Origin: Palaeococcus pacificus DY20341
GTDB lineage: Archaea; Methanobacteriota_B; Thermococci; Thermococcales; Thermococcaceae
Length of the DNA: 64,000 nucleotides
NCBI RefSeq assembly: GCF_000725425.1
Contig: NZ_CP006019.1
Coordinates: 930,001 to 994,000, forward strand
Reading direction: 5' to 3'
How positions within the stretch are numbered: position 1 is the first letter of the stretch; each line of letters starts with the position of its first letter. Both the position numbers and the translations under genes were made by a program. This document shows, piece by piece, positions 47,488 to 64,000 of this stretch. The notes below the pieces were generated by a model. It saw only the letters and a list, made by a program, of their open reading frames with translations. It had not been told where the DNA came from and made no database searches.

Positions 47488-50268
47488 ATGAAGAAGCTTG
47501 GTATACTACTGTCTGCTTTGATGCTTTTAGGGGTGTTTGGTGTTGTTTTTGCCAGTGCCGCTACAGTAGCTGTGGATCTGGCACACGGTGAAAATGATAA
47601 ATATCTAGTTGGGGATGTTATTGACAGGGATACAAACGAAACACTTGCCCAAGGAATTATTCCAACTATAACTACAGTGGATTGGGCGTACATTGGAGAC
47701 CCAGCACAAGCTGATGTTCTTGGAATCAAGAATTTGGGCGACAAAATTACGTATGACAGCTTAAAGGACGTTAAAGTCTTGATTATTGGTCAGCCTTCAA
47801 GCCCGTTTGACCCTGAGGAAATGGAGGCCATTGCTCAGTGGTTCAGCGAGGGCGGAAAGGTTCTCTGGGTTGCTGGTGACAGTGATTATGGAAGCGGAGT
47901 ACAAGTTCAGGAGTATGTTGATACTCTTCTCGACCAGCTGGGTGTTAAGCTCAGGCTTGACTTGGCCTCAGTTGAAGACCCACAGAGCAATGCCGGTGCG
48001 GGTTACAGGGTTATCGGTCTTGTGAACCCTGATGAGAACACTCCTGGCAGGAGCATGCTTGTTCAGGGCTTCCAGCATGACGGAAAGGTTCTCTATCACG
48101 GCCCTGGTGTTGTTGCTTGGGTTGATGAGAACGGTGACTGGCATCCATTAGTTGACGGTGAGGTTCCTGAGGGTGTTTACAGGATTGTTAAGACTTCAGA
48201 GGCTGGAACTATTGTTGAGAACAACGATCCTGCAGCTAACATTTACCTGGCAGGTGACGAAGGAGTATTCACACTCCTAGCTGCCGAAATGGTTCCAGGT
48301 GAGAGTGGAACTAACGTCCTTATCGTTAGCGGTGAGTCTCCTTATGGTGACTACGAACCAACCTGGTCACCAAAATACCACGGAGTCGAGCTTGACGGCC
48401 CACAATTTGTCCAAAACATAATAACCTGGGCTATTATGCAAACAATGCCAAAGATGAAAATTGCCATCGATCTAGCACACGGTGAAAACGATAAGTATTT
48501 GACCGGAGACATTCTCGACTGGGATACTAACGAGACTATTGCCCAAGGTATTTTGGACACTGTAACATACTTTGAATGGAGCTACTTTGGAGACCCAGCA
48601 CAAGCTGATGTTCTTGGAATAGAAAACCTCGGTGAAAAGATAACTCTCGAAGGATTGAAAGACGTTGATATTCTCATAATTGGTCAACCCTCAAGTCCAT
48701 TTGACCCAGAGGAGATTGAGGCCATTGCTCAGTGGTTCAGCGAGGGCGGAAGGGCTCTCTGGGTTGCTGGTGACAGTGATTATGGAAGCGGAGTACAAGT
48801 TCAGGAGTATGTTGATACACTTCTGGATCAATTGGGTGTTAAGCTCAGGCTTGACCTGGCTTCAGTTGAGGATCCACAGAGCAATGCCGGTGCGGGTTAC
48901 AGGGTTATCGGTCTTGTGAACCCTGACGAGAATACTCCTGGCAGGAGCATGCTTGTTCAGGGCTTCCAGCATGACGGAAAGGTTCTCTATCACGGCCCTG
49001 GTGTTGTTGCTTGGGTTGATGAGAACGGTGACTGGCATCCATTAATTGACGGTGAGGTTCCTGAGGGTGTTTACAGGATTGTTAAGACTTCAGAGGCTGG
49101 AACTATTGTTGAGAACAACGATCCTGCAGCTAACATTTACCTGGCAGGTGACGAAGGAGTATTCACACTCCTGGCGGCTGAGTTCACCGGTAACGGGCTC
49201 CTCATTGTCAGCGGTGAGTCTCCTTACGGTGACTACGAGCCGACCTGGTCACCGAAGTACCACGGTGTTGAACTCGACGGCCCACAATTTGTCCAGAACA
49301 TGCTGAACTGGATTGCCAGCCAAATCGCCGGAATGGCTCCAGCTGAAGTTTTAAGTGATGTTGCTGAAATCGCTGACCCAGAGGGCGACGACTACGGACC
49401 AGGAACATATGTCTACCCAACAAACGGAGTCTTCGCTGGAGAGGGCCTCTTTGACATAGTTGACTTCAAGATTAAGGAAGGAACTGATAAATATGTATTA
49501 GAGTTCTACTTCAAGAACTTAGGAGGCAATCCATGGAACGGTCCAAACGGCTTCAGCCTCCAGATAGTCGAGGCCTACTTTGACTTCAAGGACGGAGGAA
49601 GCACAGACGCAATCAAACTTGCGGAGAACGGTCCAGGCTCAAATGTCGCTTTAGACCCAGAGCACCCATGGGATGTTGCAATCAGAGCCTTTGGATGGGG
49701 AGGAAACATAGTGCTTCCAGATGGAACAGTTAAGGACTTAACAGTTAGCGCTGACTTAAACAAGAACGTCATAAGGGTTGAGGTTCCAAAGGACTACCTC
49801 CAGATTAACAAGGACTACGGCCTCTATGGAGCAGTCATTGCCGGTTCACAGGATGGATTTGGAGTGGACACCTGGAGAACAGTTGCTGTTGATGCTGAGG
49901 AATGGAAGGGTGGAGGAGCTGACGCAAATGCAGTCATAGCTGGTGTGGCTCCAAGGGTCTACGACATCCTAGTCCCACAAGGATTCACTCCAACTCAAGA
50001 AGAAATGCTCAAGAGCTTTGATGCAGACAACGGAAAGCTAGCCGTCATTAATCTCATCCCGATAGTCGAGAGCGCAAAGCCAACACCTACTGAAACACCC
50101 ACTATTTCAACCACAACTACAACGACCACTACAACAACTACCGTAACTGTGACTGAAACGACAACGGCAACCACGACTACTACAGCCGCTGGCGAGGGAG
50201 TTTGCGGTCCAGCTGCGATAGTAGCTTTGGCATTAGTACCATTGCTCATGAGAAGAAAGAGAGAATGA
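47488..50268 (+). CDS. Large CGP-CTERM surface protein with tandem duplicated domains
   Basis: The protein has 926 residues. A signal peptide is followed by two copies of a ~298-residue domain (about 25-325 and 325-610) resembling GldG/DUF4350-like Rossmann domains (LIIGQPSSPFDPEEMEAIAQ; WFSEGGKVLWVAGDSD). Next comes a region like the glucodextranase C-terminal/DOMON-like domain (DPEGDDYGPGTYVYPTNGVF), a Thr-rich stalk and the CGP-CTERM sorting tail (VCGPAAIVALALVPLLMRR). It is probably anchored and glycosylated on the cell surface and may bind carbohydrate or S-layer. GGTGA precedes the ATG at 47488. The two repeats are almost identical in their DNA core. Confidence 0.88.
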   Translation: MKKLGILLSALMLLGVFGVVFASAATVAVDLAHGENDKYLVGDVIDRDTNETLAQGIIPTITTVDWAYIGDPAQADVLGIKNLGDKITYDSLKDVKVLIIGQPSSPFDPEEMEAIAQWFSEGGKVLWVAGDSDYGSGVQVQEYVDTLLDQLGVKLRLDLASVEDPQSNAGAGYRVIGLVNPDENTPGRSMLVQGFQHDGKVLYHGPGVVAWVDENGDWHPLVDGEVPEGVYRIVKTSEAGTIVENNDPAANIYLAGDEGVFTLLAAEMVPGESGTNVLIVSGESPYGDYEPTWSPKYHGVELDGPQFVQNIITWAIMQTMPKMKIAIDLAHGENDKYLTGDILDWDTNETIAQGILDTVTYFEWSYFGDPAQADVLGIENLGEKITLEGLKDVDILIIGQPSSPFDPEEIEAIAQWFSEGGRALWVAGDSDYGSGVQVQEYVDTLLDQLGVKLRLDLASVEDPQSNAGAGYRVIGLVNPDENTPGRSMLVQGFQHDGKVLYHGPGVVAWVDENGDWHPLIDGEVPEGVYRIVKTSEAGTIVENNDPAANIYLAGDEGVFTLLAAEFTGNGLLIVSGESPYGDYEPTWSPKYHGVELDGPQFVQNMLNWIASQIAGMAPAEVLSDVAEIADPEGDDYGPGTYVYPTNGVFAGEGLFDIVDFKIKEGTDKYVLEFYFKNLGGNPWNGPNGFSLQIVEAYFDFKDGGSTDAIKLAENGPGSNVALDPEHPWDVAIRAFGWGGNIVLPDGTVKDLTVSADLNKNVIRVEVPKDYLQINKDYGLYGAVIAGSQDGFGVDTWRTVAVDAEEWKGGGADANAVIAGVAPRVYDILVPQGFTPTQEEMLKSFDADNGKLAVINLIPIVESAKPTPTETPTISTTTTTTTTTTTVTVTETTTATTTTTAAGEGVCGPAAIVALALVPLLMRRKRE
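47827..48278 (+). repeat. Intragenic direct repeat, copy 1
   Basis: About 452 bp that recur 894 bp downstream with about 14 mismatches (roughly 97% identity by eye). The sequence on the 5' side of the two copies is far more diverged. Confidence 0.9.
48721..49172 (+). repeat. Intragenic direct repeat, copy 2
   Basis: Partner of the copy at 47827-48278, exactly 894 bp (298 codons) later and in frame. The near identity stops abruptly at both ends, which suggests gene conversion. Confidence 0.9.
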
Positions 50269-50283
50269 TTTTTCTTTCTTTTT
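50264..50283 (+). terminator. Pyrimidine-tract terminator of the surface-protein gene
   Basis: A T-rich run (TTCTTTCTTTTT) just after the stop, typical of archaeal oligo-T termination. The same tract occurs after the phosphoesterase gene at 57670. Confidence 0.6.
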
Positions 50284-55559: not shown

Positions 55560-55616
55560 CACCGTAAAGAGGAAACCTTATATCTTATGGCCGCTAATTT
55601 TTTTGTTGGTGATACC

Positions 55617-57671
55617 ATGAAGAAGGCAATGGCCTTAATTTTAGCTTTGATGATGTTTTCTTTAGTTCAAGTAAACCCAGTAAGGGCTGAGATATTTCCA
55701 AGCGACGTTTTAAAGTTTCCAGCTACGGGAAGTCCCGCAATAGCAAAGCCCGGAGAAACTATAATGGTTCAAACTGTTGAAGGGGTAGAAATTACAAAGC
55801 TCTCAATTGTCTCGATCCTAGACGGCCCTTACGACCTTGAAATTATCAAAAAAGATGGAAACACTATTGTGGCTAGGATACCTAGTGACATTCCTGCGGG
55901 GAGCTACTTCCTTCAGGTGGAGTCAAATAAAGGAGATGCTGTAATACCAAACGGCGTTGTTGTTTATGATGAGTATCCTAAGGTTCTCAGAATTTGGCAT
56001 GTTAGCGATTTGCACGTCACAAGCGGATCCAAAGTAGGATACGTTAGCGGTGAAAAATTCTGCAGGAGTTTGGACAAGTGTGGAGAAAATGCCATTCCCC
56101 TGAAGAGCTACTTTGCAACGGACAGCGCTTTAACTTACGGTGCTATGAGCAGTGATGTAGACCTAATTGTGGCGACCGGTGATGTGGTAGACACTGCTGG
56201 GGATATCGGTGGTTACAAACTTCTAGTGGATACCATAGAAAATGCCGTTGCTACTGGAAAGCCAGTAATATTCGTCAAAGGAAACCACGATGACCCACCG
56301 AACTATTACACAAAGCTCATTGGATTGACAGACTTTAACATAACCATAGGGAAATTCCTCATAATAGGTTTAGATTCTCACGGAGATCAAGCACACCCAG
56401 ATATGAGCCAATTGGAGTGGATGGAGAGCGTTTTAGAGGCGAATCCAGATAAGATACCAATTATTTTAGTGCACCACCCCTATTGGTACAAGACCCCCGA
56501 GGGAAGGAGCGGAAGGATTGAAGGTTACAGCGTTGCTGACGACTGGGACACTATTGCTCCTTGGGTAAGCTACTACTGGATTGGCGGCCCTGAAAGGACA
56601 AGTGAGGAGATTGCAAAGCGCTTCCTTGAGGATGTGGAGAAATACAACATTAAGCTCGTCCTCAGCGGTCACGTCCACGCCGACTATGTCCAGGTTTATA
56701 AGGATAAAAATGGAAATGAGCACTGGTTTGTTACATCAACTACTACAGGTGCCCCGGATAAGAGGGAAGAGGACAACTGGTATGGCTCAAGGATAGTTGA
56801 GATAGATGAGAACGGCAACGTCAAGTTGCCATACATTGAAGACATGTTTGGCACAATATTTGGACCTCTAAGCTCACTCCCAGTCCCACAGGAGTTCATA
56901 GTATTTAGAAAAACAGGTGAAGACGGAAGCGGGGTTAAATTCATTAACGAATACAAGGAGATAAGCGGGAAGTTCGTTTTAGTTGCTCCAGAAGGAGCTA
57001 AAGTGGATGAAGATGCAACAGACATTGATTACAAGCTCTTAGGTGAGAGGACAATTGGAGATAAGCACTACATGCTCTTTGAGATAACAGTTCCTCTTGG
57101 AGAGCACCAATTAGTGGTGAGCAAAGCTCCCGACAACCAAGAGCCTGCTGTAAAGATAGCTTATACCTCGCCATCAAAGATAAAGGCAGGTAAGCCCTTC
57201 AAGGTTTACTATAAAGCCAGCGACAACATTGGAGTTAAAGACACTTACGTTGAGATAATTGTCAATGGAGAAGTCAAAAAGTACGCGGCGATCCCGACGA
57301 AGGGAGACCCCAACAGTGACTACTTCTTCGCCCAGGTGGACGGCGTTGATAGCGAGGACTTCATAATCAGGGCCGTTGCAATAGACTTCAACGGTAACAA
57401 AGCTACCGCCGAGAAGGTTATTGGAAGCCCACAGACCACCACAACATCAAGTACAACCACCACTACCACGACAACTTCAAGCACCACAACCACATCAAGC
57501 ACAACTACAACGACTACCACAACTACTACAACCACTACCACATCAACTACCAGCACAACGACCTCCCCAAGCCCAAGCACAACAACCACCGAAGAAAAGG
57601 GAACATGCGGTCCAGCTGCGATAGTAGCTTTAGCATTAGTACCATTGCTCATGAGAAGAAAGAGAGAATGA
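55617..57671 (+). CDS. Secreted metallophosphoesterase with CGP-CTERM anchor
   Basis: A 684-residue exported calcineurin-type phosphoesterase. After a signal peptide (ALILALMMFSLVQVNPVRA) comes a ~100-residue beta domain, then the dimetal site: HVSDLHVT near residue 130, ATGDVVDT, KGNHDD, LVHHPYW and SGHVHADY. A C-terminal beta domain, a long Thr/Ser stalk and the CGP-CTERM tail (TCGPAAIVALALVPLLMRR) anchor it outside the cell. It may free phosphate or process surface phosphodiesters for the nearby ABC importer. GGTGATACC precedes the ATG at 55617. Confidence 0.92.
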   Translation: MKKAMALILALMMFSLVQVNPVRAEIFPSDVLKFPATGSPAIAKPGETIMVQTVEGVEITKLSIVSILDGPYDLEIIKKDGNTIVARIPSDIPAGSYFLQVESNKGDAVIPNGVVVYDEYPKVLRIWHVSDLHVTSGSKVGYVSGEKFCRSLDKCGENAIPLKSYFATDSALTYGAMSSDVDLIVATGDVVDTAGDIGGYKLLVDTIENAVATGKPVIFVKGNHDDPPNYYTKLIGLTDFNITIGKFLIIGLDSHGDQAHPDMSQLEWMESVLEANPDKIPIILVHHPYWYKTPEGRSGRIEGYSVADDWDTIAPWVSYYWIGGPERTSEEIAKRFLEDVEKYNIKLVLSGHVHADYVQVYKDKNGNEHWFVTSTTTGAPDKREEDNWYGSRIVEIDENGNVKLPYIEDMFGTIFGPLSSLPVPQEFIVFRKTGEDGSGVKFINEYKEISGKFVLVAPEGAKVDEDATDIDYKLLGERTIGDKHYMLFEITVPLGEHQLVVSKAPDNQEPAVKIAYTSPSKIKAGKPFKVYYKASDNIGVKDTYVEIIVNGEVKKYAAIPTKGDPNSDYFFAQVDGVDSEDFIIRAVAIDFNGNKATAEKVIGSPQTTTTSSTTTTTTTTSSTTTTSSTTTTTTTTTTTTTTSTTSTTTSPSPSTTTTEEKGTCGPAAIVALALVPLLMRRKRE

Positions 57672-57687
57672 TTTTTCTTTCTTTTTT
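57669..57687 (+). terminator. Pyrimidine-tract terminator of the phosphoesterase gene
   Basis: The same T-rich run as at 50264 follows the stop. It reaches the convergent helicase gene's stop codon. Confidence 0.6.
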
Positions 57688-59681: not shown

Positions 59682-60845
59682 TCACCCAATCTGGAAGGCT
59701 GAGCTCCTAAGCTCGCCGCGCTCAAAGCGGTGAGGGTCGTACCACTCCCAATCGAGAGGTACTTTGCTCTTTCCTTTAGCTATCAGCTCTGCCATGGCCT
59801 CTCCAACAGCTGGTGCCATCATGAAGCCGTGGCCCGAAAACCCAGCAGCAATATAAAAGCCTTCCAAGTGGTTGATTTTTCCAATAGCTGGGTTGCTATC
59901 GGGCGTTTTTGCATAAAAACCGGCCCACTGTCTTAGAACATGGACATACTTTAGAGCAGGCACTATTTGGGTGGCCCACCTCAGGACACCACGCATGAAG
60001 TCGTATGTGGGGCTTACATCGTCTAAGTTCTTTGGAACGCTCTCAATTCCAGAGCCGCATATAACTCCCCCATCTTCGCCGTCTTGAATGACGTATGAGT
60101 CGTTCCACGCTGGCGGACAGACGAGGGGCTCAATTTGACCTGGCGCTAGGGGTTCAGTCTTTATCAGCTGGTGTTTGTAAGCTTTTATTGGAATGAAATC
60201 CCTATCTAAACCAGCCATTTCGTTTATGAGGGGCGCCCAAGAGTTAGCCGCGTTTACAACAACATCTGCTTTTATGATGCCTTTGGAGGTTTTCACTCCC
60301 TTAACACTGCCGTCCTCTACAATTATGTCCTCCACAGGAGTGTATTCATAAATTTCAGCCCCAAGCTCTTTGGCCTTCTCTGCATAAGCAAAAACCGTCT
60401 TGAATGGGTTGGCTTTTCCGTCCTCTGGATTCCAAGCTCCTCCTAAAAATGGCTCCGTGTTTAGAGGGGGAACTATCTCTTTGGCTTCTTCGGGAGTTAT
60501 GAGCCTCGTGGGAACACCGAATTTATTCTGCAAAGCTATGTTCCTCTTAAAAGCCTCGATTTCTTCTTCACTCGTTGCCAAGAATAAATATCCAGTCTGC
60601 TTAAAGTTTACATCATACTCGAGCTCTTCGCTAAGCTTTTTCCACCTCTCAACACTGTACTTCATGAGCTTTATATTGGCCTCATCAGTAAACTGGGCCC
60701 TAATTCCAGTAGCGCATCTAAAAGTGGAGCCATTTCCGAGGTAGCCTTTTTCAAACACAGCGCATTTAACCCCAAGCTTTGCTAAGTTGTAGGCTATTGA
60801 AAGCCCTATAACTCCACCGCCAATGACAACGACGTCAGTCTTCAT
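59682..60845 (-). CDS. pdhB: Dye-linked L-proline dehydrogenase-type beta subunit (FAD oxidoreductase)
   Basis: A 387-residue FAD-dependent amine/imino-acid oxidase of the DAO/sarcosine-oxidase-beta type. The dinucleotide fold VVVIGGGVIGLSIAYNL opens the protein, and the C-terminus has FYAKTPDSNPAIG and YIAAGFSGHGFMMAPAVGE for FAD binding. In Thermococcus profundus the matching gene makes the proline-oxidising subunit of a four-subunit dehydrogenase, and the gene order here agrees. Proline is the likely substrate, sarcosine or hydroxyproline the alternatives. It overlaps pdhX by 11 bases. Confidence 0.88.
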   Translation of the reverse strand: MKTDVVVIGGGVIGLSIAYNLAKLGVKCAVFEKGYLGNGSTFRCATGIRAQFTDEANIKLMKYSVERWKKLSEELEYDVNFKQTGYLFLATSEEEIEAFKRNIALQNKFGVPTRLITPEEAKEIVPPLNTEPFLGGAWNPEDGKANPFKTVFAYAEKAKELGAEIYEYTPVEDIIVEDGSVKGVKTSKGIIKADVVVNAANSWAPLINEMAGLDRDFIPIKAYKHQLIKTEPLAPGQIEPLVCPPAWNDSYVIQDGEDGGVICGSGIESVPKNLDDVSPTYDFMRGVLRWATQIVPALKYVHVLRQWAGFYAKTPDSNPAIGKINHLEGFYIAAGFSGHGFMMAPAVGEAMAELIAKGKSKVPLDWEWYDPHRFERGELRSSAFQIG

Positions 60846-63236: not shown

Positions 63237-64000
63237 TCATCCCATTTGAATTGCCTTGGTTCTGAGCTCGCCCTTCTCGAAACGATAGGGGTCGTACCAC
63301 CAGAGCGGTAATTTGGTTTTGCCCTTCGTTATTAGTTCCGCTAAAGCTTCTGCAACGGCAGGAGCCATCATGAAGCCGTGGCCAGAGAATCCAGCAGCAA
63401 TATAGTAGTCGTTTATCTCCTCTATCCTACCTATTGCAGGATTGCTATCGGGTGTTTTTGCGTAAAAACCAGCCCACGTTCTAAGTATCAGCAAATCCTT
63501 TAAAGCGGGGACTATTTTAATAAAGTTCTTGCTGACTTCCTTTACAAACTCATAAGTTGATGTTAGATCATAAGTAGGGCCGTATTCAAGCCCAATTCCA
63601 CCTACTATTCCTCCATGGGCCGTTTGAGTGAGGTAGGCGTGGTTGTGCTTAAAGGATATAACCATTGGATTAATCTGTCCCTGTCTTAATGGTTGAGTGA
63701 TAACCGCTTGGTGCTTGTAGGGCTCAATAGGGATTTTGATCGGAACTTTTGCCATGGCATTTATGAGCTTAGCCCATGCATTTGTAGCGTTGATTACTAT
63801 ACTTGTCCTGAAGAGACCTCTATTAGTCTTAACACCCTTTATTTCACCGTTTTCCATAACGATGTCCTTAACTTCAGTGTATTCGTGTATCTCTGCTCCG
63901 AGCTTCTTAGCTTCTTGGGCAAAGGCTATGGTGGTCTTGAAAGGATCGGCTTTTCCATCAGTTGGATTCCATGAGGCCGCTAAAACATCCTTTGTGTTTA
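63237..64000 (-). CDS. Second PdhB-like FAD oxidoreductase, cut by the window edge
   Basis: The frame is open to the last base, so the N-terminus lies outside; about 253 residues are visible. It aligns with PdhB at 59682-60845 along its length (WNPTDGKADPFKTTIAFA against WNPEDGKANPFKTVFAYA; YIAAGFSGHGFMMAPAV in both) but is clearly diverged, so it is a paralogue, not a recent copy. It could serve another substrate, or another alpha/F/X set could lie upstream. No frameshift is seen. Confidence 0.85.
   Translation of the reverse strand, partial: NTKDVLAASWNPTDGKADPFKTTIAFAQEAKKLGAEIHEYTEVKDIVMENGEIKGVKTNRGLFRTSIVINATNAWAKLINAMAKVPIKIPIEPYKHQAVITQPLRQGQINPMVISFKHNHAYLTQTAHGGIVGGIGLEYGPTYDLTSTYEFVKEVSKNFIKIVPALKDLLILRTWAGFYAKTPDSNPAIGRIEEINDYYIAAGFSGHGFMMAPAVAEALAELITKGKTKLPLWWYDPYRFEKGELRTKAIQMG

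Follow-up and report, generated by a model that had tools for sequence, protein, structure and literature searches.

Evidence for recent gene conversion between tandem domains within a Palaeococcus pacificus surface-protein gene, and a C-terminal tail shared with an unrelated gene

Ectopic conversion of duplicated genes is known in prokaryotes, as in tufA/tufB, where near-identical tracts with sharp edges lie within older, diverged duplicates and are shaped by mismatch repair (PMC6053082; PMC5485169). Archaeal cases in a survey of concerted evolution all came from methanogens (PMC6053082), and in a limited literature search we found intragenic conversion described for no surface protein. The present study analyzes a 64,000-nucleotide window (bases 930001-994000) of the complete 1,859,370-bp genome of Palaeococcus pacificus DY20341, in which one gene shows near-identical tracts, sharp edges and older diverged duplicates of this kind. 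It differs from the described cases in that the partners are two domains in one reading frame, in one species, and the exchange took place once or twice rather than recurrently across lineages. Patterns detected are consistent with a lineage duplication, divergence of the two copies, and then recent gene conversion overwriting the middle of one of them, an account to which we give a probability of roughly 0.9. The conversion is a clear but ordinary event of a kind already known; its value is as a clean natural case inside one reading frame of a hyperthermophilic archaeon, in which the two edges can be seen together with a patch left unconverted between them.

The gene (47488-50268, forward strand) is an intact open reading frame for a secreted or surface protein of 926 amino acids consisting of a signal peptide, two tandem DUF4350/GIFT-like domains, a Glucodextran_C domain, a Ser/Thr-rich linker and a CGP-CTERM tail (Pfam PF14258, PF09822, PF23355 and PF09985; TIGR04288). 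Codon alignment places the first N-terminal domain, copy A with its linker to the second, at 47566-48459 and copy B at 48460-49314, and a Pfam search places Glucodextran_C at 49360-50049. The DUF4350 match reached 53 bits in two stretches against a Pfam cut-off of 30.4, and the tail scored 30.1 bits against a curated cut-off of 21 (36.6 bits in a second scoring). An AlphaFold model of copy A (pLDDT 87.5) had the IFT52 N-terminal domain as its nearest PDB fold. The domains thus belong with the DUF4350, ABC_transp_aux and IFT52 GIFT group by Pfam score and nearest fold, although the P. pacificus protein is a secreted archaeal one with only 11-14% identity to IFT52, and a common function is not implied. 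One neighbor, on the opposite strand, is a tryptophanyl-tRNA synthetase-like gene (named from its sequence), and on the other side lies an ABC transporter set of substrate-binding protein, permease and ATPase; this position suggests that the product could be an accessory surface protein of the adjoining transporter. With its signal peptide, Ser/Thr-rich linker, Cys-Gly-Pro tail and conserved site beside an ABC transporter, the protein resembles other Thermococcales CGP-CTERM surface proteins (TIGR04288), but it has two DUF4350-like domains, against one in those relatives for which the gene region was read.

Relatives of the gene are encoded in 81 of 94 genomes of the family, and there was one such domain per gene at all loci read in detail (the 30 best of the relatives plus further regions), including the same-genus genome G001. 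Because the G001 ortholog and other single-domain orthologs occupy the same site, between the tryptophanyl-tRNA synthetase gene and a substrate-binding-protein gene, the second domain is an extra one, and since all relatives for which this region was read have a single domain, the duplication appears private to the P. pacificus lineage. In protein trees, copies A and B were sisters on both unconverted sides of the tract (support 94/45 on the left and 96/83 on the right) and were then joined by G001, which favors duplication after the split from G001. The duplication might nevertheless predate the species split, as is hinted at by a short loop common to copy B and the G001 ortholog, and trees of that form are not rejected (p-AU 0.12-0.35). 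Copy A has instead the longer loop found in other genera, and this could also be read to mean that the first copy, whole or in part, was acquired from a different Thermococcales species before being homogenised with the copy already present. We consider such a foreign origin improbable, since the two copies are nearest each other on both unconverted sides and copy A groups with Palaeococcus and not with another genus; moreover, it would bear on where the duplicate arose and leave the conversion as it is.

Gene conversion had been proposed by a sequence-only reading of the window, from two in-frame repeats 894 bp apart with about 14 mismatches over about 452 bp and far more diverged DNA upstream of each. 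Exact codon alignment bears this out, with 14 mismatches in 453 bp between 47824-48276 and 48718-49170 and 71.3% identity over the 258 bp of the left flank (47566-47823). The sharp left edge was as described there, but an equally sharp right edge at 48276|48277 and an unconverted patch inside the repeat had been missed. Beyond the right edge, identity is 76.6% over 141 bp, with a four-codon indel. Within the repeat, a first converted tract (copy A, 47824-47922; copy B, 48718-48816) has 2 mismatches in 99 bp, the patch (47923-47979 and 48817-48873) has 9 differences in 57 bp, all of them synonymous, and a second converted tract (47980-48276 and 48874-49170) has 3 mismatches in 297 bp. The best low-divergence interval was exactly 47824-48276, and the edges from a two-state model agreed with the segments of the codon alignment. 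Divergence along the repeat is therefore uneven. Within the diverged left flank, eleven synonymous codons in a row are identical between 47689-47724 and 48583-48618, which may mark another, shorter stretch of conversion. The idea that the tract corresponds to a unit of the fold was rejected on the AlphaFold model of copy A, in which the tract limits fall off any fold boundary and tract 1 both starts and ends inside helices.

Partial identity would also be expected if unequal crossing over had enlarged the array to three copies and then reduced it to two, leaving hybrid copies, and the repeats are indeed direct and tandem. Simple expansion and contraction, however, gives one interior edge per hybrid, while the P. 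pacificus copies contain four; in addition both copy ends are diverged and three copies occurred in no relative examined, so that this route appears, if anything, a shade less probable than a foreign first copy. An artefact of assembling repeats from short reads is very unlikely. The genome, the single one of its species, was produced by 454 sequencing with Newbler assembly and PCR gap closure (PMC4574382) and identity runs between the copies reach about 125 bp, which leaves some residual chance of a local repeat-assembly error; a collapsed contig, though, would make the copies identical, and collapse is hard to reconcile with the 14 differences retained, 9 of them clustered between the tracts, and with two interior edges.

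Synonymous sites separate recent sharing from slow evolution. Synonymous codon differences between the copies numbered 29 of 62 in the left flank, 0 of 29 in tract 1, 9 of 21 in the patch, 2 of 93 in tract 2 and 18 of 37 on the right, in segments that differ from those of the two-state model by two codons at the start of tract 2. Without a break, 75 synonymous codons are identical, whereas 20,000 shuffles gave no run longer than 46; the low-divergence interval had a likelihood ratio of 26.0, and 300 shuffles gave none above 10.2. In eight comparisons with or among relatives neither the run nor the interval test was significant (p 0.19-0.93), and the divergence of the copies from relatives was even over the full length of the domain. 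Nei-Gojobori pS between the copies fell from 0.68 in the flanks to 0.02 in the tracts. The corresponding values were 0.78 and 0.67 for copy A against the G001 ortholog and 0.75 and 0.66 for copy A against a second relative (L011), and for either copy against the two nearest relatives pS in the tracts was 0.66-0.70. The tract was thus recently shared and is not slow-evolving, in agreement with the homogenisation originally suggested, and synonymous sites of the tracts have not diverged between the copies as they should under amino-acid constraint. Purifying selection on protein or nucleotide sequence to keep the tract identical, although many of its residues are invariant and the G001 ortholog has low fourfold divergence in tract 1 (2/11), is scarcely credible when tract synonymous sites are near saturation against relatives and amino-acid identity to them, about 75%, is equal in tracts and flanks; of the selection for identity that had been offered as one reading of the conserved part, there is no sign. 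The other reading offered, recombination in the population that could alter the number of surface domains, likewise gained no support: the one genome available for P. pacificus showed no variation in domain number, and among species the count was one wherever checked apart from the two in P. pacificus.

As a control, the tandem Glucodextran_C repeats of a GH57 gene in the same genome, which are likewise old, diverged evenly and were without a comparable tract (longest run 14 codons, p 0.04). This gene (L060:1627-5649; genome position about 881.6-885.6 kb) has two tandem Glucodextran_C domains related to that of the surface protein. Conversion among the Glucodextran_C domains of the two genes was considered and rejected, as divergence was even and p values weak (0.02-0.04). 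The Glucodextran_C domain of a protein on a contig binned as Candidatus Aerophobetes, Bacteria (L041) is 62% identical to the archaeal one, for which transfer or mis-binning are both possible.

The duplication itself and the two tracts with their sharp edges are shown by the sequence, as is the failure of constraint to account for them. In the history we favor, an internal tandem duplication in the P. pacificus lineage gave two copies of the N-terminal domain, whose synonymous sites then approached saturation. Homologous-recombination repair would, a long time afterwards, have used one copy as template and overwritten about 400-450 bp of the middle of the other, in one or two events; both copies may have been on the same chromosome, or on different chromosome copies if the cell was polyploid. 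With flanks near synonymous saturation and tracts with 2 synonymous changes in about 122 codons, the duplication must long predate the conversion. The 57-bp patch could reflect two separate events with DNA left untouched between them, or local mismatch repair within a single event, and the block of mismatches with the four-codon indel beside the right edge would be expected to stop branch migration. Copy B has atypical residues at the GGKVLW site of tract 1, weakly suggesting a direction from A to B; differences in distance to outgroups were too small to decide it. By analogy, conversion between chromosome copies is plausible given the 7-19 chromosome copies of Thermococcus kodakarensis (PMC4502288), a figure measured in Thermococcus and not in P. 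pacificus, and given that in Pyrococcus furiosus alleles are converted within a few passages and recombination occurs over homology as short as 40 bp (PMC5099854).

The more interesting result concerns the other end of the gene, where homogenisation appears to extend to unrelated genes. The block at 50203-50283 (forward strand), comprising the CGP-CTERM tail, the stop codon and 15 nt of the 3′ end, is identical at 80 of 81 positions to 57606-57686 on the same strand, which holds the tail, stop and 15 nt beyond a metallophosphoesterase gene (55587-57671). The two blocks lie 7.4 kb apart in genes that are otherwise unrelated, and both the linkers before and the DNA after the two 81-nt blocks differ. 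Other tails of the P. pacificus genome showed about 31% agreement at comparable synonymous codons. In G001 (L082 and L086) the ortholog has a different tail, which matches at 68 of 69 positions the tail of a gene from a separate contig, unrelated to it and substrate-binding-protein-like by inspection, and this pair is also identical for 8 nt past the stop.

We surveyed 122 tails in nine Thermococcaceae genomes (P. pacificus, G001 and seven more), a small sample taken from several genera because the genomes are complete or nearly so, and not because of their tails, and with a tail of 20 residues giving little sequence for comparison. Near-identical tail pairs beyond the expectation from codon usage, corrected for the number of pairs, were present in six of the nine (G000, G001, G018, G020, G029 and G071), with shared blocks of 59-126 nt at 94-100% identity, and in all six an ortholog of the surface-protein gene was one partner. 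In G071 the other partner is about 7 kb away with a 708-aa frame at matching distance, and is probably the phosphoesterase ortholog. At one synonymous codon the shared tails of G018 and G020 each follow their own species (CTC against CTG), as concerted evolution predicts. Synonymous sites and the non-coding end together support copying at the DNA level. We lean toward the view that Thermococcales CGP-CTERM tails behave as a cassette that is copied repeatedly from one surface-protein gene to others of the same genome to which it is otherwise unrelated, with the block often including the last linker residues and a short stretch beyond the stop, from a few nt up to about 20, and with concerted evolution within species. 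These observations suggest that DNA-level homogenisation can act on a protein-sorting signal across unrelated genes. If this is general, similarity of tails would be no guide to the descent of the proteins that carry them, and tails may be short sites of recombination in Thermococcales chromosomes, which are highly rearranged.

Elsewhere in the window, two genes resembling FAD-dependent oxidoreductases (59682-60845 and 63237-63998) are paralogs with 73% identity over 215 nt, and they flank a ferredoxin-like gene and a large oxidoreductase-like gene.
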